A DNA stretch of 64,000 nt from Thermanaeromonas toyohensis ToBE (GTDB taxonomy: Bacteria; Bacillota; DSM-521; Neomoorellales; Neomoorellaceae): assembly GCF_900176005.1 (NCBI RefSeq), contig NZ_LT838272.1, positions 2,995,587 through 3,059,586 on the forward strand, written 5' to 3'. Both the position numbers and the translations under genes were made by a program. Positions 2,605 through 57,052 of the stretch are shown piece after piece. Within the stretch, counting starts at the first letter, position 1, and each line of letters opens with the position of its first letter. The notes beneath the pieces were generated by a model, which made no database searches, had not been told where the DNA came from, and saw only the letters and a program-made list of their open reading frames with translations.

Positions 2605-3296
2605 CCTTTGCTCCTCCATTCAGTTATATAGTTTACAAAACGTCTGGTTATTTCTTGGGGTCTTGTAATTGCTGTACCAACAACAACTGCATAGGCCCCT
2701 TTTTCAAAAGCTTTTATAGCTTGTTCTGGTGTCCATATTCTTCCTTCCGCGATCAAGGGCACTTTCACATCTTTAGAAAGCCTTTCAATTAATTCAAAAT
2801 CGGGTTCATCTATTTGAGGGCTATAATCTGTATACCCTGAGAGCGTGGTGGATATTAGATTGAAGCCCAAATAATAAGCTTCGATCCCTTCTTCATAGGT
2901 CGATATATCTGCCATAATTAAGGTTTTAGGATACTTTTGTCTTATCATTGTAAAAAATTCCGCTGTTGTAATGTTCCCCGGTTTACATGCCTTTGTCGCA
3001 TCTACTGCAACAATGTCAGCACCAGCTTTGATTACCTTATCAACTTCTTCAATTGTTGGAGTTATATAGGGTTTATATCCCTCATAATGTTTTTTTATAA
3101 GTCCAATTATCGGAAGTTTTACTTCCTTTCTAATTGCTAATATATCTTCATACCCGTTTGCCCTTATTGCTACTGCCCCACCTAATTCAGCTGCTTTTGC
3201 TATCCTAGCCATTATAAAAGAACTGTGAAGGGGATCATCTACTGGTGCCTGACAAGAAACAATTAGTCCCTTTTCTAGACGTCGTAATATATCCAT
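2577..3296 (-). CDS. nanE: N-acetylmannosamine-6-phosphate 2-epimerase
   Basis: TIM-barrel enzyme of about 239 residues that converts ManNAc-6-P to GlcNAc-6-P in sialic-acid and ManNAc catabolism. Recognisable NanE features are GLIVSCQAP near the N-terminus, the catalytic Lys in IGLIKK, ITPTIEEVDKVIKAGADIVAVDAT, the middle MADISTYEEG and the C-terminal phosphate loop PLIAEGRIWTPEQA...GAYAVVVGTAITRPQ. The first ATG (3302) directly abuts AGAGGAG; the second ATG at 3296 has the correct 6-nt spacing and was chosen. It is the first gene of the operon nanE, rpiR, ROK kinase, sugar-binding protein. Its product GlcNAc-6-P would need NagA, whose gene appears deleted in the other amino-sugar locus at 30.5 kb. 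Confidence 0.93.
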   Translation of the reverse strand: MDILRRLEKGLIVSCQAPVDDPLHSSFIMARIAKAAELGGAVAIRANGYEDILAIRKEVKLPIIGLIKKHYEGYKPYITPTIEEVDKVIKAGADIVAVDATKACKPGNITTAEFFTMIRQKYPKTLIMADISTYEEGIEAYYLGFNLISTTLSGYTDYSPQIDEPDFELIERLSKDVKVPLIAEGRIWTPEQAIKAFEKGAYAVVVGTAITRPQEITRRFVNYITEWRSKGCKNKVVSS

Positions 3297-9703: not shown

Positions 9704-10765
9704 ATGCGTGGTATCAATTCGCGCCAATATCTAATGATCGTAGCCGGGTTTGTCCTAGGGGCTGTAGCTGCCCTGATGACAGTAGCAGGCAACCCAGCTA
9801 ATATGGGTATCTGCCTAGCCTGTTTTTACCGGGACATAACCGGCGCCTTAGGTTTACACAGGACAGCAACTGTCCAATACCTAAGGCCGGAAATTATGGG
9901 TATAGTTCTAGGCGGCTTCATTTCTGCCCTCGCTTTTGGGGAATTCCGAGCCAGGGGAGGTTCTGCGCCTCTTGTTCGCTTCTTTTTAGGTGCTTTCTTT
10001 ATGATAGGTGCTATGGTGTTCCTCGGATGCCCAGTAAGGGCTGTATTAAGGGTGGCAGGAGGAGATTTAAATGGGCTGACCGGTATAGCCGGAGTGGTGA
10101 CTGGTGCTTTAATAGGAATTTATTTTTTAAAAAGGGGTTTTAACCTGGGCCGTTCGACCCCAACCTATACAGCAGCTGGCTGGATAATGCCTCTATTTAT
10201 GGTGGGCCTCCTGCTGCTGGCCATCTTTAGACCCCAATTCATATTCACCAGCAAAGAAGGTCCAGGCGCTGCTCATGCACCTTTGATCCTTTCTCTAATA
10301 GTAGGATTACTATTCGGCTTCCTCGCCCAAAGGACCAGGATGTGCTTTGTGGGGGGCTGGCGCGATCTGTTCTTGGTAAAGGATACTTATCTTTTCAGCG
10401 GTATAGCTGCCTTTTTTATAGGTGCTCTTATCCTTAATCTCATGTTAGGTAAAGTCCATGTAGGTTTTGTTAATCAGCCTATTTCCCATAGCAATCACTT
10501 GTGGAACTTTCTAGGGATGATCCTGGCCGGCCTTACTGCCACTTTACTGGGAGGATGTCCCCTACGCCAAACGGTCCTGGCTGCCGAAGGGGATACCGAT
10601 GCTGGTATAACCGTCTGGGGGATAATAGCAGGAGCCGCCTTTGCCCATAACTTCGGGCTGGCCTCTAGTCCTAAAGGTCCCAGTCCCCTGGGCCCTCTAG
10701 CTGTGGTTATAGGTTTAGCCTTTGCCCTGGCTGTAGGGTTCTTGATGCGGGAAAGGATCGATTAG
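9704..10765 (+). CDS. yedE: YedE/YeeE-family membrane transporter for sulfur or selenium species
   Basis: A 353-residue integral membrane protein with about 9-10 hydrophobic segments. It is an internal duplication: both halves carry a Cys-containing entry motif (NMGICLACFYRD near residue 30; RMCFVGGWRDLF near 210) and a GCP(V/L)R motif (GCPVRAVLRVAGGDLNGL; GGCPLRQTVLAAEGDTDAG). YeeE/YedE proteins import thiosulfate, and the YedE/FdhT branch is linked to selenium metabolism. The downstream DUF3343, kinase-like and TusA-like genes fit that branch. The conserved cysteines probably relay the substrate through the membrane. Substrate is not decidable by eye. Confidence 0.88.
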   Translation: MRGINSRQYLMIVAGFVLGAVAALMTVAGNPANMGICLACFYRDITGALGLHRTATVQYLRPEIMGIVLGGFISALAFGEFRARGGSAPLVRFFLGAFFMIGAMVFLGCPVRAVLRVAGGDLNGLTGIAGVVTGALIGIYFLKRGFNLGRSTPTYTAAGWIMPLFMVGLLLLAIFRPQFIFTSKEGPGAAHAPLILSLIVGLLFGFLAQRTRMCFVGGWRDLFLVKDTYLFSGIAAFFIGALILNLMLGKVHVGFVNQPISHSNHLWNFLGMILAGLTATLLGGCPLRQTVLAAEGDTDAGITVWGIIAGAAFAHNFGLASSPKGPSPLGPLAVVIGLAFALAVGFLMRERID

Positions 10766-10791
10766 CTCTAAAAACAGGAGGATGGACTCTA

Positions 10792-11343
10792 TTGATTTTA
10801 AAATGGCCTGGCCTGGCTACCCGCGCGGTCCAAGAAAAGAAAAATACCCGGGGAATAATAATCTTCCCTACAGTGGAAGAGGCTTTAAAGGGGGAAAAGG
10901 TGGTTAAAAAAGCCGGATATGAAGGTAAGCTGGTGGCGCCACCCCCTGCTTTGCGGAAGGGTTGCGATTTGGCTGTAGAGATAGAGCTGGTAGAGCAAAC
11001 AGCAATTGCTCGCGCTTTACAAGGACAGGTCTATTATATAGGTATCTATCCCTTAGAAGGTTCTGCCGAACTATTGCAGATAGTAAAGATCGTCTATTTT
11101 CCAGAACACGTAATGGTAAAAGCCGGTAATATGAAAATTGTTTTTTCTAAGGACACCGGTATAATCGTCAATATATCAGGGGGTGGCTGCCCAGATGTTC
11201 CTTACCTGTATACCAAACTAGTAGGCTCCCATCTAGAGACAATCCCCCGGCCGCAAGATTTAGGTTTCACCCTCTGCGCTTTAATGCTGGATAGAGCCTG
11301 GGAAGAAGCTTTGGCTATCTGGAAGGGAGGAAGGCTCACTTGA
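10792..11343 (+). CDS. DUF3343 protein with extra C-terminal domain
   Basis: 183 residues. Residues of about 18-80 match the DUF3343 pattern (TRGIIIFPTVEEALKGEKVVKKAGYE, then a Cys-containing RKGCDLAVEIE), a small domain commonly found beside YedE and TusA/SirA-like proteins. The remaining 90 residues, with a GGGCPDVPYL motif, are not recognised and make it roughly twice the usual length. It starts at a TTG with GGAGGA 9 nt upstream; the nearby ATG at 10782 is out of frame. It overlaps the next gene by 4 nt. Function unknown; a carrier or chaperone of reduced sulfur or selenium is plausible from context only. Confidence 0.75.
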   Translation: MILKWPGLATRAVQEKKNTRGIIIFPTVEEALKGEKVVKKAGYEGKLVAPPPALRKGCDLAVEIELVEQTAIARALQGQVYYIGIYPLEGSAELLQIVKIVYFPEHVMVKAGNMKIVFSKDTGIIVNISGGGCPDVPYLYTKLVGSHLETIPRPQDLGFTLCALMLDRAWEEALAIWKGGRLT

Positions 11344-12236
11344 TCCTCATTGTGGGAACTGTTCCCACAGAAGATCTTGACCTTGTCCAGGGTAAAGTGG
11401 TAAAGGTAGGAGATTCGCTTAAGGTCCAGGATTATGCTTTCCCTTGTGGGCAGGGTACAGGAGCCATGATCAGCGCATGCCTTGCGGTAACAAGTGCTTT
11501 GGGCGTAGAACCTCCCCATGCGCTTCTGGCCGGAGATATTGGCAGGGGCCAAGGCACCAGGCGCCTTTATCAATATTTAATAGAGCACGTGAGGGAACTG
11601 AAGCCTAGGATTCTTGCCCTACATTATTGCCTGCCCATAGTTAGATTGATACAAAAGCTTTGTGAAGCACTTGAGTATTGCCAACCCCGGCCTTTGTTAG
11701 TTGCCGATGCTGGGGCCATGTACGCAGCTAAGGCGGGTGGAATGGCTCCTCAATTTGATATTTTTACTCCCGACCCCAGTGAAATGGCCTTTCTCGCTGA
11801 TCCAGAAGCTGCTCATCCCGCTTATGTCAGCCGTCATCTTTTTGACACCGAGACCCAACAAGTTCCTGAACTGATAAAAAAGGCTTATACCAATGGTGGA
11901 GCCGCTAAAATCCTCTTAGTTAAAGGGGCTATAGATTATATTGCCACTGAAGGAAGGGTTATGGCTAGGATAGAGGAGCCTTGTGTGCCGGAACTAGAGT
12001 GCATAGGTGGAACAGGGGACACCATAACCGGCATGATAGTTGCTTTAACAGGCGCCGGGTGGGATCCCCTGAAAGCAGCTATTATAAGTGCCCAGATCAA
12101 CCGGCTGGCTGGCAAAATGGCAGGCGCCACACCAGCCACTCCGGTAGCTCGACTCATCGAGTATATTCCCGTGGTTTTAAAAGCCCATAACCCCAATTAC
12201 CTGGAAAGGAGGTTCCTCCAATATGATAGAAATTGA
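11340..12236 (+). CDS. Ribokinase-fold protein related to NAD(P)H-hydrate dehydratase/sugar kinases
   Basis: 298 residues. The C-terminal GGTGDTITGMIVAL (about residues 222-235) is the anion-hole and catalytic Asp motif of the ribokinase/YjeF-C superfamily; PDPSEMAFL and KILLVKGAIDYIA fit the core of the same fold. The N-terminal third (GQGTGAMISACLAVTSALGVEPPHALLAGDIGRGQGTRRLY) is not typical for sugar kinases. It is translationally coupled on both sides (4-nt overlap with DUF3343, 14 nt with tusA), so it works with the YedE system. It may phosphorylate or dehydrate a small molecule; no substrate can be named. Confidence 0.65.
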   Translation: MILIVGTVPTEDLDLVQGKVVKVGDSLKVQDYAFPCGQGTGAMISACLAVTSALGVEPPHALLAGDIGRGQGTRRLYQYLIEHVRELKPRILALHYCLPIVRLIQKLCEALEYCQPRPLLVADAGAMYAAKAGGMAPQFDIFTPDPSEMAFLADPEAAHPAYVSRHLFDTETQQVPELIKKAYTNGGAAKILLVKGAIDYIATEGRVMARIEEPCVPELECIGGTGDTITGMIVALTGAGWDPLKAAIISAQINRLAGKMAGATPATPVARLIEYIPVVLKAHNPNYLERRFLQYDRN

Positions 12237-12469: not shown

Positions 12470-12511
12470 GTCGGGTGTAGGAGGTTCTTATTTCCTTTAC
12501 CCGGCTTTTTT
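12470..12511 (+). terminator. Terminator of the yedE operon, possibly bidirectional
   Basis: Outer stem GTCGGGT/ACCCGGC followed by TTTTTT on the plus strand; the complement also ends the convergent ABC transporter operon, whose stop codon at 12510 overlaps the T-run. Confidence 0.75.
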
Positions 12512-14189
12512 ATATCATATCTTGAACGGAAATTCCCTCTGTCAGATCGGCCGCCAGGCTTAGAAGCGTACGGGTGTAAGGATGTTTGGGGTTAGATATA
12601 ACTTCGCTGGCCGGCCCCTCTTCTACCAAAGAACCGTCCTTCATGACCGCCAGGCGGTCGCTCACTTTTCTAGCCAAAGCGATATCATGGGTAATAAAGA
12701 GTATGGCCAATCCCCTTTTCTCCTGCAGGTTAAGGAGAAGCTTTAGAATCTTAGCTTGTATACTGGCGTCTAGGGCAGAGGTGGGTTCATCGGCAATTAA
12801 AAGCTTGGGATTTAATACCAGGGCCCGGGCAATGGCCACCCTCTGGGCTTCTCCACCGCTGAGCTCGTGGGGATATTTGTGCAAGAAAAAGTCCTGAGTT
12901 GGTAGCTCTACTTCTTCCAGAACCTGCTTTACTCGTTCCACCTTCTCCTCTTCCCTGCCCCAGCCCTGCACGTCCAGGGGCTCTTTCACCAACTGTAAGA
13001 CATTCATCCGGTGACTTAGGGATTCCTGGGGATTTTGAAAGATCATCTGCACTCGTTGATAGAATTCCTTGTCCCTGTGTAAAACTTTTTGACCCTCCAG
13101 CCAAATTTCGCCCTTATCCGGTGGCAGCAAGCCCATGATGGTCAAGGCCAAGGTGGTCTTACCAGATCCACTTTCCCCCACCAGGGCTAAGGTTTCTCCT
13201 TCGTACAGGGTCAATTCCACTTCCTGCACGGCCCGCACCCCGTTAAAGGATTTGCTAAGGTTTTTTATTTCTAGTAAAGGTATTATCCCTCCCCGGTGAC
13301 AGGCCAAGAAGTAGTCCCCAAGGCCTTTCAATTCCGGCACTTCTTGGGAACAGATTTCCATCCGCTGGGTACAGCGGGGATGAAAAGGGCATCCGCCCAC
13401 AGGCTTATAAGGAGGCCCGGGGATCCCTTGTAAATCCTTGACTGTGGTCATGTTGGGATAAGAGCGCAAGAATCCCCGGGTATAGGGATGGCGCGGGAAG
13501 GTAAAAAGACTCCTAGTGGCGCCTAGCTCTACTACCCGACCACCATATAAGACGGCCACTCGGGTGGCCAGTTTAGCAGCTGTAGACAGGTCGTGGGTGA
13601 TTAACAAAACGATTTTATCCCTAATTACCCTTTTAAGGAGACTTATAATTTCCGCTCTAGTTATAACATCTAGAGAAGCAGTAGGTTCATCTAGGATGAG
13701 TACCTCGGGATCATTGGCCAAGGCCAGGGCTAAAAGAACCCTCTGTTTTTCCCCGCCGCTCAACTGGTGAGGAAAGGTGTGCAACCGGTCCTGTCTTAGG
13801 CCAACCGCTTTAAGGATCTCCACCGCCTTCCCTTGGGCAACCTCTTTGTCTTTAAGCCCATGAATCAGTATAGCCTCCATGACCTGGTCCACCACCGGAT
13901 AAAGGGGGTGCAGGGCGTCCTCCACGTTTTGAAAAACCATAGCTATCTCTTTTCCCCGGATCCGGCAACGTTCTTCCTCCGGCAGGGCGAGGATATCCCT
14001 GCCCTTAAACAAGATCTGCCCAGTGCACCTGCCAGGCGAAAGCCCCATAATGGAGAGGCCCAAAGTAGTCTTGCCTGCCCCGGACTCCCCTACAACAGCC
14101 AGAACTTCCCCTTTTTCTAACCGTAGGTTAATACCCTTTAACACCGTTAGGTGGCCAAAGGACACTTGCAAATCTTTAATGACCAGCAT
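12510..14189 (-). CDS. Fused double ATPase of a Dpp/Opp/Nik-type ABC importer
   Basis: 559 residues comprising two complete ABC ATPase domains. The first (1-290) has Walker A GESGAGKTT, signature LSGGEKQR, Walker B LILDEP and the oligopeptide-transporter C-terminal Cys motif (PFHPRCTQRMEIC) that usually carries a 4Fe-4S cluster. The second (about 305-550) has GESGSGKTT, LSGGEAQR and LIADEP. In most Dpp/Nik systems these are separate proteins (DppD and DppF). It energises uptake through the two permeases encoded just upstream. The operon runs fmdE, binding protein, two permeases, ATPase. Confidence 0.93.
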   Translation of the reverse strand: MLVIKDLQVSFGHLTVLKGINLRLEKGEVLAVVGESGAGKTTLGLSIMGLSPGRCTGQILFKGRDILALPEEERCRIRGKEIAMVFQNVEDALHPLYPVVDQVMEAILIHGLKDKEVAQGKAVEILKAVGLRQDRLHTFPHQLSGGEKQRVLLALALANDPEVLILDEPTASLDVITRAEIISLLKRVIRDKIVLLITHDLSTAAKLATRVAVLYGGRVVELGATRSLFTFPRHPYTRGFLRSYPNMTTVKDLQGIPGPPYKPVGGCPFHPRCTQRMEICSQEVPELKGLGDYFLACHRGGIIPLLEIKNLSKSFNGVRAVQEVELTLYEGETLALVGESGSGKTTLALTIMGLLPPDKGEIWLEGQKVLHRDKEFYQRVQMIFQNPQESLSHRMNVLQLVKEPLDVQGWGREEEKVERVKQVLEEVELPTQDFFLHKYPHELSGGEAQRVAIARALVLNPKLLIADEPTSALDASIQAKILKLLLNLQEKRGLAILFITHDIALARKVSDRLAVMKDGSLVEEGPASEVISNPKHPYTRTLLSLAADLTEGISVQDMI

Positions 14190-14196
14190 CTTCCAT

Positions 14197-15030
14197 TTAT
14201 CCTCGCAAGCGAGGATTTAAAACCCCCTCCAGGGCATAACCAATAAAAGTTAAAGCAGTAACAGTCACAGAAAGAGCCAGGCCAGGGGGCAAAAGCCACC
14301 ACTTCCATACTCCCAAATAAGTAAAATTTAGGGCCTGCTGCATCATTTTGCCCCAACTTAGCAGGGTAGGATCAGAGACGCCTAAAAAGGATAGACCCGC
14401 TTCCATAAAGATGGCCCGCCGGGCATTCTGTATCATGACGGCCAGCAAAACCGGGCCCAGATCCGGAATTATATGGCGTGCCATAATATAAAACGAGCCT
14501 GCGCCAAAGGTACGGGCCGCTGCTACGGACTTTTTCTCTTTTAAGGATAAGGCTTCTGCCCTTATTATCCTGGCTCCGCCAGGCCAGAGGAAAGCCGCCA
14601 GCAAGAGGATTAAAGTTAAAAGATGGGGTTTTAGGTAAGCTCCCACAAGTATCGCTACCAGGACCGGGGGAATAACCAGAAAGGCGTCTACTACCCGCAT
14701 ACACAAGGCATCGTAAAGGCCACCCGCCAGGGCAGCTGAACTACCTACCAGTACGCTTATTATTCCTGCCAGCAGCGCAGCCCCGCACCCTACCAGTAGG
14801 GAAGTCCGCGCTCCATAAAGCAGACACGACCAGACATCCTGGCCCACGTCATTAGTACCCAGCCAGTGTTGGGCTGAAGGACGGCTAAAAGCAGCCCCAA
14901 CCCTAGCCTCCGGCGAATAAGGGGCCAAAAAAGGTGCCAAGGCAGCCAAAAAGGCTAAAAATAGGAAGAGCCATAAGCCCGTCCTTCCCAACCTGTTTTC
15001 TTTTATCTCCTGCCAATAATTAACGTGCAT
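14197..15030 (-). CDS. Dpp/Nik-type ABC permease (DppC-like)
   Basis: 277 residues. An N-terminal membrane segment is followed by a loop with WLGTNDVGQDVWSCLLYGARTSLLVG, typical of DppC/OppC/NikC, then the ABC permease core with the EAA-type coupling motif (AAARTFGAGSFYIMARHIIPD) and AGLSFLGV near the end. About six membrane segments. It overlaps the upstream permease by 11 nt and is 7 nt from the ATPase, so it is strictly operonic. It pairs with the DppB-like permease to form the membrane channel. Confidence 0.93.
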   Translation of the reverse strand: MHVNYWQEIKENRLGRTGLWLFLFLAFLAALAPFLAPYSPEARVGAAFSRPSAQHWLGTNDVGQDVWSCLLYGARTSLLVGCGAALLAGIISVLVGSSAALAGGLYDALCMRVVDAFLVIPPVLVAILVGAYLKPHLLTLILLLAAFLWPGGARIIRAEALSLKEKKSVAAARTFGAGSFYIMARHIIPDLGPVLLAVMIQNARRAIFMEAGLSFLGVSDPTLLSWGKMMQQALNFTYLGVWKWWLLPPGLALSVTVTALTFIGYALEGVLNPRLRG

Positions 15031-15991
15031 AAGCTATCCTCGGATCAAGCTTCCGATAAAGCAAATCTATCATTAAATTAATGGCCAACACAGTCACCGT
15101 AATTACCAGTAGAACTCCCTGGATAACCGGATAATCCCGCACCAGGAGGGCATTGTAAAGAAGAGTGCCCAAGCCAGGATAAGAAAAAACAACTTCCACA
15201 AAAAGGGTGCCGCTAATTAAGTGGGATAAATGCAGCCCGGCAGCGGTAACTACCGGTAAAAGGGAATGGCGGCCGGCGTGATAATACCGCACCCGGCCAT
15301 CCTTACAACCCTTGGCCCGAGCCGTAAGGATAAAGGCCGCGCCTAAAGTAATGATCATGCTATTACGGGTTAAAAGGAAGGTGCCCACCAGGCGCACTAA
15401 AACCAGCGTTGCCAAGGGTAACGCCAGGTGGTGCAAAATATCCAGCACCAGGTAAAAGCCAGTTAAACCAGCGTAGGGCGTTAAACCCCCGCCCAAAGGG
15501 AAAAGGCCCCAGATCACGCCAAACAAAAGCAGGAACAAGACCCCAATAAAAAAGTCGGGAAACCCGTTTAAAAGCATCAAAGTGGTTAGTAAAAGCCTAT
15601 CTAGCGGCTGCCCGCGCCTCCAGCCTGCTTCCACACCTAATATAAACCCGGCTATGGTGGCCAAAATTAAAGCCAGACCTGCTATCAACAAAGTCCAGGG
15701 AAGAGAGCGCAATACCACTGAGGCTACCGGTGCATGGTAGTAATATGAGTAACCCAGGTCACCCCGAAAAAGAGCCCTCAAGTAGGCAATAAACTGTTCG
15801 CTTAAGGGCCGGTCCAGAGCAAAGCGCTGGATTAGCTCGGCCTTTAACTCCGGCGTCATAGCTAACAGCGCGTCATCACCGTATATAGCCTCTAAAGGGT
15901 CGCCTGGCATAAGACGGGGCAGGAGGAAATTTAGAGCCAGTATAAGAAAAAAGGCCGTAACATAGTTGGCTATCTTCCCTGTTATACTCAT
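15020..15991 (-). CDS. Dpp/Nik-type ABC permease (DppB-like)
   Basis: 323 residues. Typical DppB/NikB start (FLLPRLMPGDPLEAIYG), a periplasmic-side loop after the first membrane segment (RFALDRPLSEQFIAYLRALFRGDLGYSY), and the coupling-loop region TARAKGCKDGRVRYYHAGRHSLLPVV. Six membrane segments are visible. The coupling motif deviates slightly from the usual EAAR form. It overlaps the DppC-like gene. Confidence 0.92.
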   Translation of the reverse strand: MSITGKIANYVTAFFLILALNFLLPRLMPGDPLEAIYGDDALLAMTPELKAELIQRFALDRPLSEQFIAYLRALFRGDLGYSYYYHAPVASVVLRSLPWTLLIAGLALILATIAGFILGVEAGWRRGQPLDRLLLTTLMLLNGFPDFFIGVLFLLLFGVIWGLFPLGGGLTPYAGLTGFYLVLDILHHLALPLATLVLVRLVGTFLLTRNSMIITLGAAFILTARAKGCKDGRVRYYHAGRHSLLPVVTAAGLHLSHLISGTLFVEVVFSYPGLGTLLYNALLVRDYPVIQGVLLVITVTVLAINLMIDLLYRKLDPRIAYAR

Positions 15992-16039: not shown

Positions 16040-17617
16040 TTATTTCACAAAGGCCATTTTATTCAAGGGGTTGGGTACACCTGAACCTACACCTCCCGGG
16101 GTAAAGTAAAGTTCTATGCGGCCATCATGGGCCCAGTAACTGGTGGGATAATACAGGGGCAAGGCCGGCATCTCTCGGGCATAGATCTCCTGGATCTGGT
16201 TCACCAACTGGCGTCGCTTTTCTAAATCCATCTCCAAGTTCTGTTTGGCCAGCAAACTATTCAATTCTTCGCTTTTATCATAGCGTGCGCTGTTAAATCC
16301 CTGGCCGGAAATTACTCGGTTCAATATTTCCGGATCGCCTCCCAGGCCGCCATGGCCGCTTAAAGCCAGGTCAAACTTCCACTCCTTCACCCTATTATCA
16401 AGCGTCTTGGCTTCCAAGCTGCGCAAGTTTACTTTTATACCTACTTTTTCCAATTGTTCCTTTACAAGCTCAGCTACCCTTTCCTCAGAAGACCTACTCC
16501 CTGTGCCCCGGAACAAAAGCTCCAGTTCCAAGATTTGTCCGTCCCTGGCTAGGTAATTTCTCTGACGAGTGTATCCCAGGCTGGCCAACAACTCTTCCGC
16601 CTTGGACGGGTTATAGTTATACTGTTCCACACGGGCATTATACCAGGGATTATCTGGTGGAATAAGGCCTGGACTGCCTGCCAATCCAAAGCCCCGCAGA
16701 GCTACTTTGACCAGGGCCTCCCGGTCAATAGCCAGGGCCAGGGCCTGGCGGAATTCCCTCTTGCTCAAGGGACCTTTCCGATGGTTGATCAAAAGTTTGG
16801 CTACCCAATCGTGGGTTCCCCTCAAAATCTTAAACCCTTCTTTTTTAAGATCTTCTGTTAGCTCCGGAGGTGGGGAGGCAGCGTTGACCTGCTTCTGCCT
16901 TATAGCGGCCGCCGCCATCTCCTCACTTATTTTTACAAACTTCAACTTGCTCACCCGCGGCTTGCCCTGGTAATAGTTATCATAGGCCTCGTATAAGTAG
17001 GTGCCCTGTTCCCTATTGTAATCTACCAGCTTAAAAGGCCCCGTGCCTATAACAGCCTCTTTCTGCTGAAACTTTTCCGGTTCCTCCACATTTTGCCAAA
17101 TATGAGCAGGCAGAATGGGCAAGGTACCAGCTATATTGCTTAGAAAGGGCGCATACGGTTTGCTCAAACCCAATTTCACTGTATACTCGTCCAGTGCTTC
17201 CGCCTTCTTAATCACAGAAGTGTCTACCCACTGGTAAGGGTGCTTACGCATATAATCTACCGTAAAGACTACATCCTTAGATGTGAATTTGTGCCCATCG
17301 TGCCAGGTAACATTTTGGTTTAAATGAAAGATATAGGCATTATCTTGTGGGTCGTATTGCCATTCCCTAGCCAGGGCCGGAACGAAACCCTGGGCATCTT
17401 TCCAGATTAGGGTGTCAAAAATAAAGCTCATGCGCACATAACCCGGGCCCCGAGGATAATGGCCGTAAGGGCTAGGGAAACCCCAATCTCCAGTAGTATC
17501 CGCTATGGTGTAGACACCTTGATTTTCTACCTTCTGCCCAGCACAGCCTGCTAGCAGCAAAAAAATTGGTAAAAGGCTTAAAACTACCATCCCCAGCCGC
17601 CAGGCTTTTCTTCCCAC
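16040..17617 (-). CDS. Family 5 extracellular solute-binding lipoprotein (Dpp/Opp/Nik type)
   Basis: 525 residues with a signal peptide and lipobox (LLAGC, Cys at about 25). Family 5 marks include FHLNQNVTWHDGHKFTSKDVVFTVDYM, the GTGPFKLVDY loop, and KREFRQALALAIDREALV. Members bind peptides, nickel chelates, or other oligomers. Beside fmdE the substrate could be a metal complex or metallophore, but no residue seen by eye decides this. GTG start at 17617, with GGAGGGGG about 12 nt upstream; the nearby ATG is out of frame. Confidence 0.9.
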   Translation of the reverse strand: MGRKAWRLGMVVLSLLPIFLLLAGCAGQKVENQGVYTIADTTGDWGFPSPYGHYPRGPGYVRMSFIFDTLIWKDAQGFVPALAREWQYDPQDNAYIFHLNQNVTWHDGHKFTSKDVVFTVDYMRKHPYQWVDTSVIKKAEALDEYTVKLGLSKPYAPFLSNIAGTLPILPAHIWQNVEEPEKFQQKEAVIGTGPFKLVDYNREQGTYLYEAYDNYYQGKPRVSKLKFVKISEEMAAAAIRQKQVNAASPPPELTEDLKKEGFKILRGTHDWVAKLLINHRKGPLSKREFRQALALAIDREALVKVALRGFGLAGSPGLIPPDNPWYNARVEQYNYNPSKAEELLASLGYTRQRNYLARDGQILELELLFRGTGSRSSEERVAELVKEQLEKVGIKVNLRSLEAKTLDNRVKEWKFDLALSGHGGLGGDPEILNRVISGQGFNSARYDKSEELNSLLAKQNLEMDLEKRRQLVNQIQEIYAREMPALPLYYPTSYWAHDGRIELYFTPGGVGSGVPNPLNKMAFVK

Positions 17618-17664: not shown

Positions 17665-18273
17665 CTACCACCCCCGGCTGTACTCGTCAGCACATGGAAT
17701 ACAGACGGGTTTTCCTCCTTTCACGCGCGCTCGCACCTCGGCTACTGGCTCACCGCACACAGAACAAATTACGGAATCAAAAAGGCGCGCCTTGGGAGGA
17801 GGTTCTACCTCTAGCCTTTGCACAGTGCATATTTCTTCCTCTGGTGCTTCTAAAATATAGCGCATCCGCTGCTCTTGGTATTGCTGGAAAAGAGCCTTCT
17901 CCTCTTCGCTAGCTTCCCTCCCAAACACCTTTTTCCTTAACTCTCGGTAAGTCTCCTCCTGTTGCCAGGCCGTCGCCTTTATGGCTATGCGGACTGCCCG
18001 GTGGCTGTCCCGGCAGATGAAGGTAAAAACATGCTTACCATAATCCCGGTAAAGCAGGTTGCCCTTCCCCAGGGTACAACCCGTTAATACCTGAATAGCA
18101 TCCACTCCACAGGCGTCGGTCTCCACCACGGCTACTAGTTCCTCATCTTGCGCCCGTTCTGTCTTCAGCTCCCGCAACGCAATTTGGGCTGCCCGGTAGC
18201 CTACGGCCAACCCCGGGCAAGCATGGCCATGAAATTCAACAGCTCTTTCCCAATCGCTCAATGGACGGCACAT
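17665..18273 (-). CDS. fmdE: FmdE/FwdE-family protein with zinc-ribbon tail
   Basis: About 202 residues. Residues of about 10-150 are the FmdE domain (VEFHGHACPGLAVGYRAA, ETDACGVDAIQVLTGCTLGKGNL, VFTFICRDS), with conserved His and Cys residues likely to bind metal. The C-terminal CSVCGEP...CIPCADEY is a zinc ribbon. FmdE was named from tungsten/molybdenum formylmethanofuran dehydrogenase operons but is widespread in anaerobes without that enzyme, often beside metal transporters. The open frame extends to an ATG at 18315, but that codon lies in the terminator hairpin of the leader, so the ATG at 18273 (AAGGAG upstream) is preferred. First gene of the ABC operon. Confidence 0.85.
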   Translation of the reverse strand: MCRPLSDWERAVEFHGHACPGLAVGYRAAQIALRELKTERAQDEELVAVVETDACGVDAIQVLTGCTLGKGNLLYRDYGKHVFTFICRDSHRAVRIAIKATAWQQEETYRELRKKVFGREASEEEKALFQQYQEQRMRYILEAPEEEICTVQRLEVEPPPKARLFDSVICSVCGEPVAEVRARVKGGKPVCIPCADEYSRGW

Positions 18274-18300
18274 ACCCCAAACACGCTCCTTTTTAAAGAC

Positions 18301-18411
18301 TAAATAAAAAACCATGGAAGCCGCCTCCGCCCTGCTTAAGCTAGAGAACCTCCATGGTTCTGGCTAAAGCTTGAAAAGTTGGACTTTAGAGCCCCCTGGC
18401 TCCTTGCCAGG
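18301..18411 (-). promoter_or_regulatory. Candidate attenuator or riboswitch leader of the fmdE-ABC operon
   Basis: From the predicted start near 18408 the minus-strand RNA can form hairpin P1 (CCTGGC/GCCAGG, 18395-18411) and P2 (GGCT..AAAG/CTTTAGCC, 18362-18393). Two mutually exclusive structures follow: GAACC(ATGGA)GGTTC at 18346-18360, or AACCATGGA with TCCATGGTT (18351-18359 with 18310-18318) followed by TTTTTTATTTA, a terminator. The alternative pairing is the standard architecture of transcription-terminating riboswitches. No known class was recognised. Confidence 0.6.
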
Positions 18412-18414
18412 TAG

Positions 18415-18443
18415 TCTATAAATTAATTCGCCACAACTGTAAA
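18415..18443 (-). promoter_or_regulatory. Promoter of the fmdE-ABC operon
   Basis: Minus strand TTTACA (18438-18443), 17 nt, TATAGA (18415-18420). It lies downstream of the terminator of the preceding operon and just before the structured leader. Confidence 0.65.
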
Positions 18444-18452
18444 AATCCCTTC

Positions 18453-35996: not shown

Positions 35997-36036
35997 CTAA
36001 AAACTCCTCCAAAGGTCATTTTCTCTTGAGGGAGTT
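35997..36036 (-). terminator. Terminator overlapping the 3' end of the ABC ATPase gene
   Basis: Minus strand AACTCC/GGAGTT stem (36031-36036 with 36002-36007) followed by TTTTTAG; the TAG stop codon of the ATPase gene is part of the T-tract. Confidence 0.65.
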
Positions 36037-37079
36037 AGGGTTTTTAGCTTTCTAAAATTGAAATTTATCCACACTGGACTTCCCACCTCTAGTCTTTGTT
36101 CTTCCGCTGTGAGGCAAGGTATTTCTACCGTGAGCAAGTGCCCCTCTACCTCTACTTGGCATTGGATGGTGTACCGGCCAGGGGAAGTTTTAATTATCCT
36201 CCCTTTATATTTATTAATTCCAGGAGCAGGAGGGGGATAAATAGATAAACTAATATCATAGGGCATAATAGCTATCTCTCTTAAGCTATCCCCTCCCTCC
36301 CAGGGGACTAGCAAAACTAACTTACCGCAATGGGCCCTGGCTAGTCCAGGGCCTATCGCTTCATATCTATCCACTTTCAAAAGATTGGGAGGGGGGATAA
36401 AACCCTGAATTTTAGCTGCTGGGCGCAGGAAAATTTCTTCTGGAGTCCCTACTTGACCTAACTCGCCCTCCACTATGACTGCTATCCGGTCTGCCAGCTC
36501 CCGCGCCTCCGAGAAGTTATGGGTAACATATAGGGTAGTTAAAGATAGACGGCGCTGAAGCTCTTTTATCTCTAAACGTAAAAGCTTAGCTAAGCTGTAA
36601 TCAAGGTTGCTCAAGGGCTCGTCCAAAAGTAAAATACGGGGCTCTACGGCCAGGACCCGAGCTAAAGCTACCCTTTGCTTTTCTCCCCCGCTTAAATTCC
36701 TAGGATAACGGCTTCTAAGATGGCCAATATTTAAAAGTTCCATCACCCGGGATATTCTTCCTGGTATTTCTGCCAGGGAAAATCCCTTGGCTTTAAGCCC
36801 AAAGGCTATATTGTGGTACACATCCATGTGGGGAAATAAGTATAGTTCCTGGAATACATAGCCGATCTGGCGTTTTTCGGGGGGCAAGAGATCTACTTTC
36901 TCCTCTCCAAAGTACACTTCTCCCTCATATTCCACTAGGCCAGCAATAACATTTAGTAAAGTAGTTTTGCCAGCACCAGTAGGTCCTAAAAGAACCAATA
37001 GTTCCCCCTCTTTAATCTCTAAATCAATTTCTTTAAGGCAAAACTTGGTAGATATCTTCTTTAGGGTAATGGCTGGCAT
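35997..37079 (-). CDS. ABC transporter ATPase with C-terminal TOBE-like domain
   Basis: 360 residues. ABC ATPase core (about 1-235): Walker A GPTGAGKTT, Q-loop FQELYLFPHMDVYHNI, signature LSGGEKQR, Walker B ILLLDEPLSNLDYSLAK, His switch VTHNFSEA. Residues of about 240-345 form a TOBE/MOP-type regulatory domain (VEVEGHLLTVEIPCL), which is more typical for molybdate, sulfate, iron or thiamine importers than for SsuB/TauB. Partner of the permease and the binding protein upstream. Together with the riboswitch-like leader this hints at a molybdenum/tungsten-related substrate. Confidence 0.9.
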   Translation of the reverse strand: MPAITLKKISTKFCLKEIDLEIKEGELLVLLGPTGAGKTTLLNVIAGLVEYEGEVYFGEEKVDLLPPEKRQIGYVFQELYLFPHMDVYHNIAFGLKAKGFSLAEIPGRISRVMELLNIGHLRSRYPRNLSGGEKQRVALARVLAVEPRILLLDEPLSNLDYSLAKLLRLEIKELQRRLSLTTLYVTHNFSEARELADRIAVIVEGELGQVGTPEEIFLRPAAKIQGFIPPPNLLKVDRYEAIGPGLARAHCGKLVLLVPWEGGDSLREIAIMPYDISLSIYPPPAPGINKYKGRIIKTSPGRYTIQCQVEVEGHLLTVEIPCLTAEEQRLEVGSPVWINFNFRKLKTLTPSRENDLWRSF

Positions 37080-37103
37080 ATTGTACTCCCAACCCTTTTA
37101 CCT

Positions 37104-37859
37104 CTATTTCCAGGCCCCAGTTAATTTATGCTCTAACCAGAGGAATATCCTTTCTCCCCCAAAGCTCATAAGGGAAAGGATAAACAGGCAGACAAAAATT
37201 ATATCTACCCGTATAAGGCTTTCTGCATTTATAAGCAAAGCCCCTATACCGGTGGGGATAGCTATCATCTCTGCTGCCACTACTGTGCGCCAGGCCATGC
37301 CAGCTTCTAACCGCAAGCCAGTAAAGATGTAAGGCAGGGCTAGGGGAATTATCACGTGGTGCAATATAAGCCAAGGGGAAGCACCTAATACCCGCGCCGT
37401 TTGGATATATTTAGGGTTTACAGATCTTATGCCAGCGATGGTATTATAAAGCAAAGGGAAAAAGGAGCATATAAATATTAAGGTAACAGGCAAAGCTTCG
37501 CTTAGGCCTAGCCAGAGCATAAGCAAAGGGAGCCACCCTAAGGCAGGTATAGGGTATAAAATGCTAAATAAGGGTGCTAGGCTCTTGTAGGCTAGATTAG
37601 AGCATCCCAGGATTATGCCCATTACCACTCCTGTTAAGCTCCCTAAAACAAAACCTCCCACTACGCGGAGCAAAGAAAGGGTTAGATGTTTTAACAAAAT
37701 GCCCTCCCCTGCCAAGTATACAAATTCAGCTATGACTTTACTAAAAGGAGGGAAAAGGGGAGAAGCAATCAAGCGTGCTCCTACCTCCCAGCCGCTTAGG
37801 AAAAGAAAGGTAGGTATCCAATAAGCCCAAGTTAGCCTCCCATCTTTTTTAGAGAACAT
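37104..37859 (-). CDS. ABC permease of the SsuC/TauC/ThiX type
   Basis: 251 residues with six membrane segments. N-terminal FLSGWEVGARLIASPLFPPFSKVIAEF is typical for the nitrate/sulfonate/taurine permease group; the coupling motif is AARVLGASPWLILHHVIIPLALPYI-like (ARVLGASPWLILHHVIIPLA), followed by GLRLEAGMAWRTVVAAEMIA. It forms a homodimeric channel with the ATPase downstream. Substrate cannot be read from the sequence. Confidence 0.9.
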   Translation of the reverse strand: MFSKKDGRLTWAYWIPTFLFLSGWEVGARLIASPLFPPFSKVIAEFVYLAGEGILLKHLTLSLLRVVGGFVLGSLTGVVMGIILGCSNLAYKSLAPLFSILYPIPALGWLPLLMLWLGLSEALPVTLIFICSFFPLLYNTIAGIRSVNPKYIQTARVLGASPWLILHHVIIPLALPYIFTGLRLEAGMAWRTVVAAEMIAIPTGIGALLINAESLIRVDIIFVCLFILSLMSFGGERIFLWLEHKLTGAWK

Positions 37860-37874
37860 CTTAGTCTTTCTCCC

Positions 37875-38894
37875 TCAATCGCTATATAACACTTCTTCCG
37901 CTCTAACCTGTTTTTTAAGGTAGCCATAATAATACATAAGGTCTATTATTTTTTGTATCTCCTGGGCATCTAAATGGGGGTTGTAGTCGAGGTTGGACAT
38001 GGATTCCTTGATTACCGCTGGTGTGACACTTATATCAGCCTCAGGACTCGACATCTCTTCCTTAACGGTATTTTGGTATTGATTTAAGCTATGGGCTACT
38101 ATGTTAGCCGTTTCTTCCCGGTGGCTATTTATAAACTCAGTGGCCTTTTTATTAAGGGAAATAAGTTTTTTCACTGCTCCAGGGTGCTCCTTTAAAAATT
38201 TATCTGTAACTATTAAAACGCTCCCTTGCATATTAGGCCATATATCCTGGCTTTTAGCCAAGATTTTCATACCGGAAAGCTGGGCAGCCAGGGTAGTAAA
38301 ATGCTCCGGAGCGAAAATAGCATCTACTTTGCCTGAACGCAAAGCTAAAAGTTGTTTGGCAGGATTCATGCGTACCGTGTGGGCCAAGATCTTCCCCCGG
38401 TCTAACTCTTTTTGTTTAATTAACAAGTTAAACAAAAGGTCAGTAGTGGCTCCTGGTTGCATGGTGGCTATTTTTACTTCTTCTTTCTCTAAATCTCTAA
38501 ATTCCTTTATTTTACTGGTATTAACTACCAGACCATAACCATTTTTATGGGTACCAGCCACTATTTTCAAAGGTACTCCCCCATTGGCATAAGCCGCCAA
38601 GGCCGGTACCAGGCAGATATAAGCCATATCTATCCCACCTTTGGTGAGAGCCGCTGCCAGGGCTACCCCAGTGGCATAGACGTTAAAGCTAGTAACCTCG
38701 AGATTATTTTCTTTAAACCATCCTTTTTCCTGGGCCACATAAAAGGAAGCGGCATGGTCTGTATATTCCACCGCTACACTTAAAGGAACCCCCGCTTCTC
38801 TTTCCTTTACGTTTTTGGGGCCACATCCCTCTAGAGGTATCAATCCCGCTATTAGGATAGCTAAGATCAATATAAAAGCTATCTTCTGCCTCAT
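37875..38894 (-). CDS. NMT1/SsuA-like substrate-binding lipoprotein
   Basis: 339 residues with signal peptide and lipobox (PLEGC, Cys at about 24). Mature part: LSVAVEYTDHAASFYVAQEKGWFKENNLEVTSF, DMAYICLVPALAAYANG, PGATTDLLF, GKVDAIFAPEHFTTLA, the pattern of periplasmic NMT1/TauA/SsuA-type proteins that bind sulfonates, thiamine precursors or other small anions. First gene of the three-gene operon behind the structured leader at 38934-39088. If that leader is a Moco/Tuco riboswitch, the ligand may be a cofactor precursor or oxyanion; this is inference. Confidence 0.88.
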   Translation of the reverse strand: MRQKIAFILILAILIAGLIPLEGCGPKNVKEREAGVPLSVAVEYTDHAASFYVAQEKGWFKENNLEVTSFNVYATGVALAAALTKGGIDMAYICLVPALAAYANGGVPLKIVAGTHKNGYGLVVNTSKIKEFRDLEKEEVKIATMQPGATTDLLFNLLIKQKELDRGKILAHTVRMNPAKQLLALRSGKVDAIFAPEHFTTLAAQLSGMKILAKSQDIWPNMQGSVLIVTDKFLKEHPGAVKKLISLNKKATEFINSHREETANIVAHSLNQYQNTVKEEMSSPEADISVTPAVIKESMSNLDYNPHLDAQEIQKIIDLMYYYGYLKKQVRAEEVLYSD

Positions 38895-38933: not shown

Positions 38934-38962
38934 TTAAAAACCCCACCGGAGGAGGTGGGGTT
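38934..38962 (-). terminator. Leader terminator (expression platform) before the ABC operon
   Basis: Minus strand CCCCACC/GGTGGGG hairpin followed by TTTTTAATTT, 40 nt before the binding-protein ATG. The loop (TCCTCC) is complementary to the 3' strand of the aptamer's closing stem (GGAGGA), giving an alternative structure. Confidence 0.8.
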
Positions 38963-38975
38963 TCACCCCTTTAAT

Positions 38976-39088
38976 CCTCCTTTTCGAAACGGAAGGCATA
39001 GCGGTTTCCCTGCTATACCCCGCGGGCTTAAAAAGCCCGGGCCAACCTGCCATAGGAGGCTTCCCTTAGGCCAGGAAGGCTCGGAGGT
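38976..39088 (-). ncRNA. Candidate riboswitch aptamer, molybdenum/tungsten-cofactor (Moco/Tuco) type
   Basis: A 113-nt minus-strand element closed by ACCTCC/GGAGG (39083-39088 with 38976-38980). It contains the 11-nt tetraloop receptor halves CCTAAG (39065-39070) and TATGG (39050-39054), and a GGGAAACC hairpin with a GAAA tetraloop (39003-39010), plus a GGGCTTTTTAAGCCC hairpin. The starting CUCCGAGCC and the tetraloop/receptor pair are what I recall of Moco RNAs; the GEMM c-di-GMP riboswitch has its tetraloop before the receptor, the opposite order. Class assignment from memory only. Confidence 0.55.
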
Positions 39089-39202
39089 AAACTAAATTTA
39101 ACATATGTTCGATTCGCTTTTTTATATTCGACAGCTACACATAAACTCCTTCTTGAACACGATTTAAATTTATTTAAGCCAAGAGGAGAATGATCCAGGG
39201 AT

Positions 39203-56334: not shown

Positions 56335-56949
56335 ATGCGCCAGCCCAAGATTTTTCTGGCTTCAACCGATCAGGCCTCCCTCCAGACCTTAAAGCAAATT
56401 TTACAAAGGGAAGGTTACGCGGTAGCGGGTGTGGCGCAGGACGGCAGCCAAGCCCTAAGGCTGATCCATACCCTGCAGCCAGATCTAGTGATCTTGGATA
56501 GCGAGTTGGCGGGTACCGGCGCCCTGGAGGTGGCTAGGTTTATTAATGAAGAACAAGTGGCTCCCATCATTATGTTGGCTTCCTCCTGGCACCGGAACAT
56601 TATAAATAAGACCAGGGATTTTCCAGTATTCGCTTATCTTGTTAAGCCGGTCCAGGAAACCACTCTGCTACCTGCGGTGGAAGCCGCCTTAGCTAATTAT
56701 GAAAAGCTGGTACGCCTAGAGAAAGAACTAAACAAGCTTAAAGAGACCTTGGCTGCCCGTAAGGTAATAGAAAGGGCCAAGGGTATCCTTATGGAGACTC
56801 TGGGGCTTACGGAAGCAGAAGCTTATCGGCGGATCCAGAAGCAGAGCATGGATAAGTGTGTACCTATGAAAGCCATAGCCGAAGCTATAATTGTGGCCCA
56901 CGAATTGCAAACAGGCCAAAGAAAAAAAGAGGATATAAAAAAAAGCTAA
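56335..56949 (+). CDS. ANTAR-domain response regulator (NasR/AmiR type), antiterminator of glnA
   Basis: 204 residues: receiver domain (about 4-125; phospho-Asp in LVILDSELAGTG) and C-terminal ANTAR RNA-binding domain (about 140-195: RKVIERAKGILMETLGLTEAEAYRRIQKQSMDKCVPMKAIAEAII). ANTAR proteins bind hexaloop hairpins in RNA and prevent termination. The gene lies directly upstream of such a hairpin and of glnA, as in other Clostridia. No cognate histidine kinase is adjacent. Confidence 0.93.
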   Translation: MRQPKIFLASTDQASLQTLKQILQREGYAVAGVAQDGSQALRLIHTLQPDLVILDSELAGTGALEVARFINEEQVAPIIMLASSWHRNIINKTRDFPVFAYLVKPVQETTLLPAVEAALANYEKLVRLEKELNKLKETLAARKVIERAKGILMETLGLTEAEAYRRIQKQSMDKCVPMKAIAEAIIVAHELQTGQRKKEDIKKS

Positions 56950-56960
56950 ACTAATCCATT

Positions 56961-57013
56961 GGGGCAACGGCGTCCCTGGACAGGCTTTAAGGCCTGTCGA
57001 AGGGACGTTTTTT
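56961..57013 (+). promoter_or_regulatory. ANTAR-target hairpin overlapping the glnA leader terminator
   Basis: GGGGC-AACGGC-GTCCC (56961-56976) has a hexaloop with A at position 1 and G at position 4, the ANTAR rule. It shares CGTCCC with a strong terminator CGTCCCTgGACAGGC/GGCCTGTCgaAGGGACG followed by TTTTTTG (56971-57013). Forming the first blocks the second. The expected first hairpin of the dual motif was not clearly found. Confidence 0.8.
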
Positions 57014-57052
57014 GTTTAATCCATGTACCCGCATCTTAGGAGGTTAAAAGTC

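Follow-up and report, generated by a model that had tools for sequence, protein, structure and literature searches.

The window analysed here is a stretch of 64,000 nucleotides from Thermanaeromonas toyohensis (genome G000), whose minus strand carries fmdE and the genes of a Dpp/Nik-type transporter behind a structured leader:

18425 to 18450, minus strand: promoter-like site, sigma-H-like, AGGGAT-N13-GCGAATT, matching AGGAWT-N13-GCGAATA at 11 of 13 positions
18395 to 18411, minus strand: hairpin P1, CCUGGC-AAGGA-GCCAGG, the recurring (N)NGRA-loop hairpin upstream of P3
18362 to 18394, minus strand: P1-P3 linker of 33 nt, varying in length and sequence among homologues
18345 to 18361, minus strand: hairpin P3, the antiterminator, AGAACC-AUGGA-GGUUCU, seen by covariation
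18306 to 18361, minus strand: intrinsic terminator overlapping P3, seen by covariation, -26.8 kcal/mol
18285 to 18294, minus strand: Shine-Dalgarno sequence, AAAAAGGAGC
17665 to 18273, minus strand: fmdE, with a C-terminal dksA/traR-type zinc finger (PF02663, 8e-50; PF01258, 2.9e-10)
16040 to 17617, minus strand: family-5 solute-binding protein of the Dpp/Nik type (PF00496; best NCBIfam match nikA, under its cut-off)
15020 to 15991, minus strand: permease (PF00528)
14197 to 15030, minus strand: permease (PF00528)
12510 to 14189, minus strand: fused double ATPase (PF00005 twice)

The terminator 5' arm (AACCAUGGA, 18359-18351) is drawn from the 5' half of P3, so that P3 and the terminator are mutually exclusive; the 3' arm (UCCAUGGUU) lies at 18318-18310 and the run of six U at 18311-18306, all on the minus strand. 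The original prediction had described this choice as GAACC/GGTTC pairing against a terminator with a T-run, and both pairings were located as it described them, on the minus strand, and both covary. Its argument that the ATG at 18315 is blocked in favour of a later start is also borne out, as this ATG falls within the terminator 3' arm and homologues support 18273 (MCRPLSDWERAVEFHGH) as the start of fmdE. Adjoining the operon at 9704-12236 on the plus strand are genes for a YedE-like membrane protein, a small protein and a sugar-kinase-like protein (PF01256); in relatives (L060, L061), homologues of this trio are neighbours of fmdE or of ZnuA-type operons, which hints at a connection with selenium or a metal.

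The leader region folds more stably than its dinucleotide shuffles (z -3.8, 0/200). The terminator is more stable than P3, both when each is folded alone (-26.8 against -6.2 kcal/mol) and in the whole unaided RNA (-45.2 kcal/mol with the terminator, -39.4 with P3 enforced), and unaided RNA should therefore terminate. When 60 related genomes were searched at the nucleotide level, the half made of P3 and the terminator matched many times at about 80% identity, often far from fmdE; these loci share a repeated design of a hairpin, a variable linker and a hairpin overlapping a terminator. A covariance model (R1) gave further members, and in a MAFFT alignment of 24 the P3 helix had 26 double-change cells against a shuffled mean of 8.4 (0/500), while five terminator pairs had double changes (1/500 shuffles). 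With a second model (R2), 91 members were aligned (90 distinct homologues). The terminator helix, to which this alignment was not fitted, was 96% paired and had 75 double-change cells, where shuffles gave 19 (0/500); P3 had 102 against 37 (0/500), a count that is somewhat favourable because the alignment was fitted to P3. Moreover, the P3 loop and the 3' arm of the terminator change in step (AUGGA/UCCAU, AUGAA/UUCAU, ACGGA/UCCGU, ACGAA/UUCGU), and this signal is lost when the partners are shifted by 1 to 3 columns, as a true either/or switch predicts. An antiterminator and a terminator that exclude each other and are each conserved by covariation make a transcription attenuator, and the fmdE leader is thereby confirmed as a real on/off RNA switch, with the transcription-terminating logic that had been proposed for it.

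The upstream hairpin is conserved in a different manner. A stem of 5 or more pairs capped by an (N)NGRA loop was found in 48 of 79 non-redundant upstream regions, against 1.2 expected from dinucleotide shuffles (maximum 7 in 200 rounds), and this strict test did not detect P1 in the other leaders (about 31/79). Control loop patterns that do not overlap (N)NGRA (NARG, NAGR, NGYA, NCRT) occurred 0 to 2 times each. The loops seen are the pentaloops AUGAA, AAGAA, ACGAA, AUGGA, AAGGA and AGGGA and the tetraloops AGAA, UGAA, CGAA, CGGA and UGGA. P1 stems are unrelated in sequence, as are the P1-P3 linkers, which range from 1 to 84 nt. That two hairpins share a loop, while their stems and spacing are free to vary, implies that the loops are what is read, and such an arrangement looks more like a protein-binding site than a riboswitch. 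Of the two hairpins first proposed upstream of the switch, P1 is thus upheld by its recurring loop, but the second (about 18394-18362) lies in the variable linker and is not conserved. The original prediction was to fall if homologous leaders lacked covariation or the hairpin proved a plain terminator; both exclusive helices do covary and the loop motif of P1 is a recurring one, and the switch stands.

A promoter-like site also recurs in front of the element. AGGAWT-N13-GCGAATA, which we take to resemble the sigma-H consensus, matches at 11 or more of 13 positions in 32 of 77 leaders (1.5 expected), with a spacer that is nearly always 13, and AGGGATTTTTACAGTTGTGGCGAATT is the window copy (18450-18425, minus strand). 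The sigma-70 promoter TTTACA-17-TATAGA proposed earlier is present as sequence (18443-18415), but its predicted start near 18408 would lie inside P1, and we rejected it in favour of the conserved site.

Nor is the element a one-off, as its description as an orphan had suggested. R2, whose seeds were taken from fmdE-rich relatives, matched in 106 of 398 genomes of the phylum (E<=1e-3), with up to 13 copies each; the E-values are rough, and about 0.4 chance matches would be expected if they were exact. The T. toyohensis genome has five convincing members, before the window fmdE-Nik operon, chlI-chlD (417707), cobN-btuF (421134), cbiM-cbiN (841351) and a methyltransferase gene (1086702); for three of the five the E-values are no better than 0.01 to 0.23, and the assignment depends on structure and gene context. 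Its match at 2924952 (L121) and those at L117, L123 and L191 were judged false from context. In one apparently Moorella-like genus (g7), the element precedes a ZnuA-type transporter, cobN and cbiM, and in diverged form fmdE, where it reads AACCAUGAAGGUU ... AACCACGGAGGGU ... GUGGUUAUUUU. In a second genome of the window's own genus (G001), fmdE is lost and a decayed leader copy is kept between a DUF364 gene and a NifX-like gene (L032/L058; C84, about 2947-3029). At least eight copies occur within 40 kb in another genome (L154, L155; G089:C1:2511500-2552000).

Members found with R1 precede cbiM or cbiQO, chlI/chlD, Nik-type binding protein and methyltransferase genes. Pfam matches among 95 downstream proteins comprise methyltransferases (10), SBP_bac_5 (9), FmdE (9), permease domains (6), ATPase domains (6), CbiM (5), and DUF3842, Peripla_BP_2 (BtuF-type) and ZnuA (4 each), and genes checked singly encode CobN, DUF4198, an ECF component, two CsoR/RcnR-type repressors and an [FeFe]-hydrogenase. 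We judge that metal-supply-type genes are present at about 33 of 38 phylum-level loci; members also precede nuoA-C (L112), hdrA (L145) and a possible sensor (L171), which have no obvious metal role. As judged from these annotations, the common denominator of the downstream genes is nickel and cobalt supply. At three loci (L160, L169, L174), an unassigned ECF substrate component lies behind the element, with a small methyltransferase next in L160 and L174; this component is possibly a new metal or metallophore transporter. At another (L165, G118), the element stands immediately 5' of an [FeFe]-hydrogenase large-subunit gene, followed by genes for a TAT-signal protein and a cytochrome b-like protein, and is a candidate nickel-sparing isozyme switch.

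Rfam 15 covariance models gave no match at the element at gathering or permissive thresholds, including those for NiCo, mini-ykkC, T-box, Cobalamin and Moco, in agreement with the original failure to place it in a known class. We found no account of it in the literature on nickel antitermination, on FmdE and riboswitches or on orphan riboswitches, most subscription papers lying outside the search, and the family is apparently large and undescribed. One likeness in shape is the guanidine-II (mini-ykkC) riboswitch, which also has two small equal-loop hairpins and a variable linker; its loops (ACGR) and genes differ. The NiCo riboswitch (czcD motif), which folds as a four-way junction, shares the nickel/cobalt biology but differs in fold and controls exporters. 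These exporter genes are turned on by nickel and cobalt (PMC7266159). The window does contain a known class elsewhere, a Moco/tungsten-cofactor riboswitch (RF01055, 86.8 bits; 38961-39098, minus strand) before an ABC transporter of the NitT/TauT kind (binding protein, permease and ATPase; 35997-38894), which is perhaps a molybdate or tungstate importer.

What, then, reads the loops? A tandem-hairpin riboswitch, in which the two (N)NGRA loops would bind a metal ion, a metal chelate or a cofactor without any protein, is the foremost competitor, though an unlikely one. It would account for the finding that no candidate protein (ANTAR, FmdE or CsrA) is present in all carriers, guanidine-II offers a precedent for two small equal-loop hairpins forming a ligand site, and the purines of a G-R-A loop could bind transition metals. 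The aptamer would, however, be very small, with conservation confined to the loops, and a ligand that stabilizes P3 would turn uptake on at high metal, which is the reverse of what is needed unless the ligand is a sign of shortage. Of the riboswitch originally proposed to sense the transported metal, its chelate or a cofactor, the gene set supports the transported metal; the equal-loop hairpins look more like a protein site.

Among proteins, an ANTAR-domain antiterminator is one candidate. ANTAR target RNAs are dual hairpins with hexanucleotide loops that have A at position 1 and G at position 4 (PMC3369931). The element resembles the leaders read by EutV, NasR and AmiR (PMC3369931) in having two like-loop hairpins, the second overlapping an intrinsic terminator, and in that protein binding would prevent termination. 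Its loops could be read as the ANTAR loop AANGRR shortened on the 5' side to (A)NGRA, and ANTAR genes are enriched in the best carriers (37/40, against 165/358 of the other genomes, not corrected for phylogeny). Yet these are pentaloops (ANGRA) or tetraloops (NGRA), many without G at position 4, and the linker is 33 nt in the window and up to 84 nt elsewhere, compared with 5 to 12 nt in E. faecalis eut; the nickel/cobalt genes are a further difference. An ANTAR-domain gene is missing in 13 of 70 carriers (E<=1e-5), including near-complete genomes such as G192, G200, G115, G167 (one contig) and G005. The only ANTAR gene of T. toyohensis adjoins glnA. An ANTAR protein with shortened loops as its target is thus improbable, and was rejected as the universal binder. 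That gene, an ANTAR response regulator (56335-56949), lies within the window and is followed by glnA, with the glnA leader between the two (56335-57022 for gene and leader, plus strand). In this leader a strong terminator (z -4.5) is overlapped by the hairpin GGGGC-AACGGC-GUCCC, which has the canonical hexaloop AACGGC; it is likely a true ANTAR target and offers a contrast or control to the fmdE leader.

That FmdE itself might be the RNA-binding sensor of its own operon and regulon is more doubtful still. FmdE shows the strongest association, being present in 62 of 70 carriers (E<=1e-5) and in 86 of 328 other genomes (not corrected for phylogeny), but fmdE leaders were abundant among the model seeds, which inflates this figure. 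The protein is a domain-swapped dimer with a metal site and a zinc finger, and its crystallographers proposed RNA binding (PMC2954224). It is, however, missing in carriers G051, G065, G167, G200 and G338, of which G051 and G200 have well-formed leaders, and it too was rejected as the universal binder. CsrA was rejected since at least 36 of 90 P3 loops are A[UC]GAA and thus lack the GGA expected in a CsrA/RsmA loop, and the single-contig T. toyohensis genome has no match to its domain (PF02599). A plain terminator or DNA operator with no switch, for which one could cite the palindromic CCATGG repeat in the window and the G001 remnant between two genes, is hardly credible when two exclusive helices covary, loops are kept while stems change, and a conserved promoter stands in front and one functional gene set behind.

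Because ANTAR, FmdE and CsrA each fail as the universal factor, we favour a putative, probably dimeric, RNA-binding antiterminator, with the protein-free riboswitch as its main rival. Computation shows directly that two helices exclude each other, that the loop is repeated, which genes lie downstream and that no Rfam class matches. With a probability of roughly 55%, we propose that the leader belongs to an attenuator family that controls a nickel/cobalt-acquisition regulon via such an antiterminator and is on at scarcity; from these features we infer protein binding, nickel or cobalt as the signal, and the direction of the response. By default, the nascent RNA would fold into the long terminator and transcription would stop before fmdE. 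At a shortage of nickel (or cobalt), the antiterminator would grip the P1 and P3 loops and keep P3 closed, the terminator would not form, and fmdE and the transporter would be made. A nickel-free [FeFe]-hydrogenase under the element fits a switch that is on at nickel shortage. The signal may alternatively be cobalt, zinc, molybdenum/tungsten or selenium.

The proposed regulon has targets in common with that of NikR, a DNA-binding repressor, namely the Nik and Cbi transporters. NikR is absent from T. toyohensis, and a test of 36 carriers gave one clear copy, in G167, and marginal matches in two more. NikR is also found in fewer than half of organisms with NikABCDE (PMC2667541). We consider it rather probable that an RNA-based nickel/cobalt-limitation regulon, read either by a putative metal sensor that binds RNA or by the leader RNA on its own, replaces NikR in many anaerobes of this phylum. 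For nickel regulation in bacteria that have Nik/Cbi transporters and lack NikR, the element is a concrete candidate regulon and supplies an RNA model for further searches and a short RNA to serve as bait for the sensor. Our findings also suggest a relative of ANTAR-style dual-hairpin antitermination in which the loops, and probably the protein too, are different. Since nickel limits CO dehydrogenase and NiFe hydrogenase, the element also bears on acetogens used in gas fermentation.
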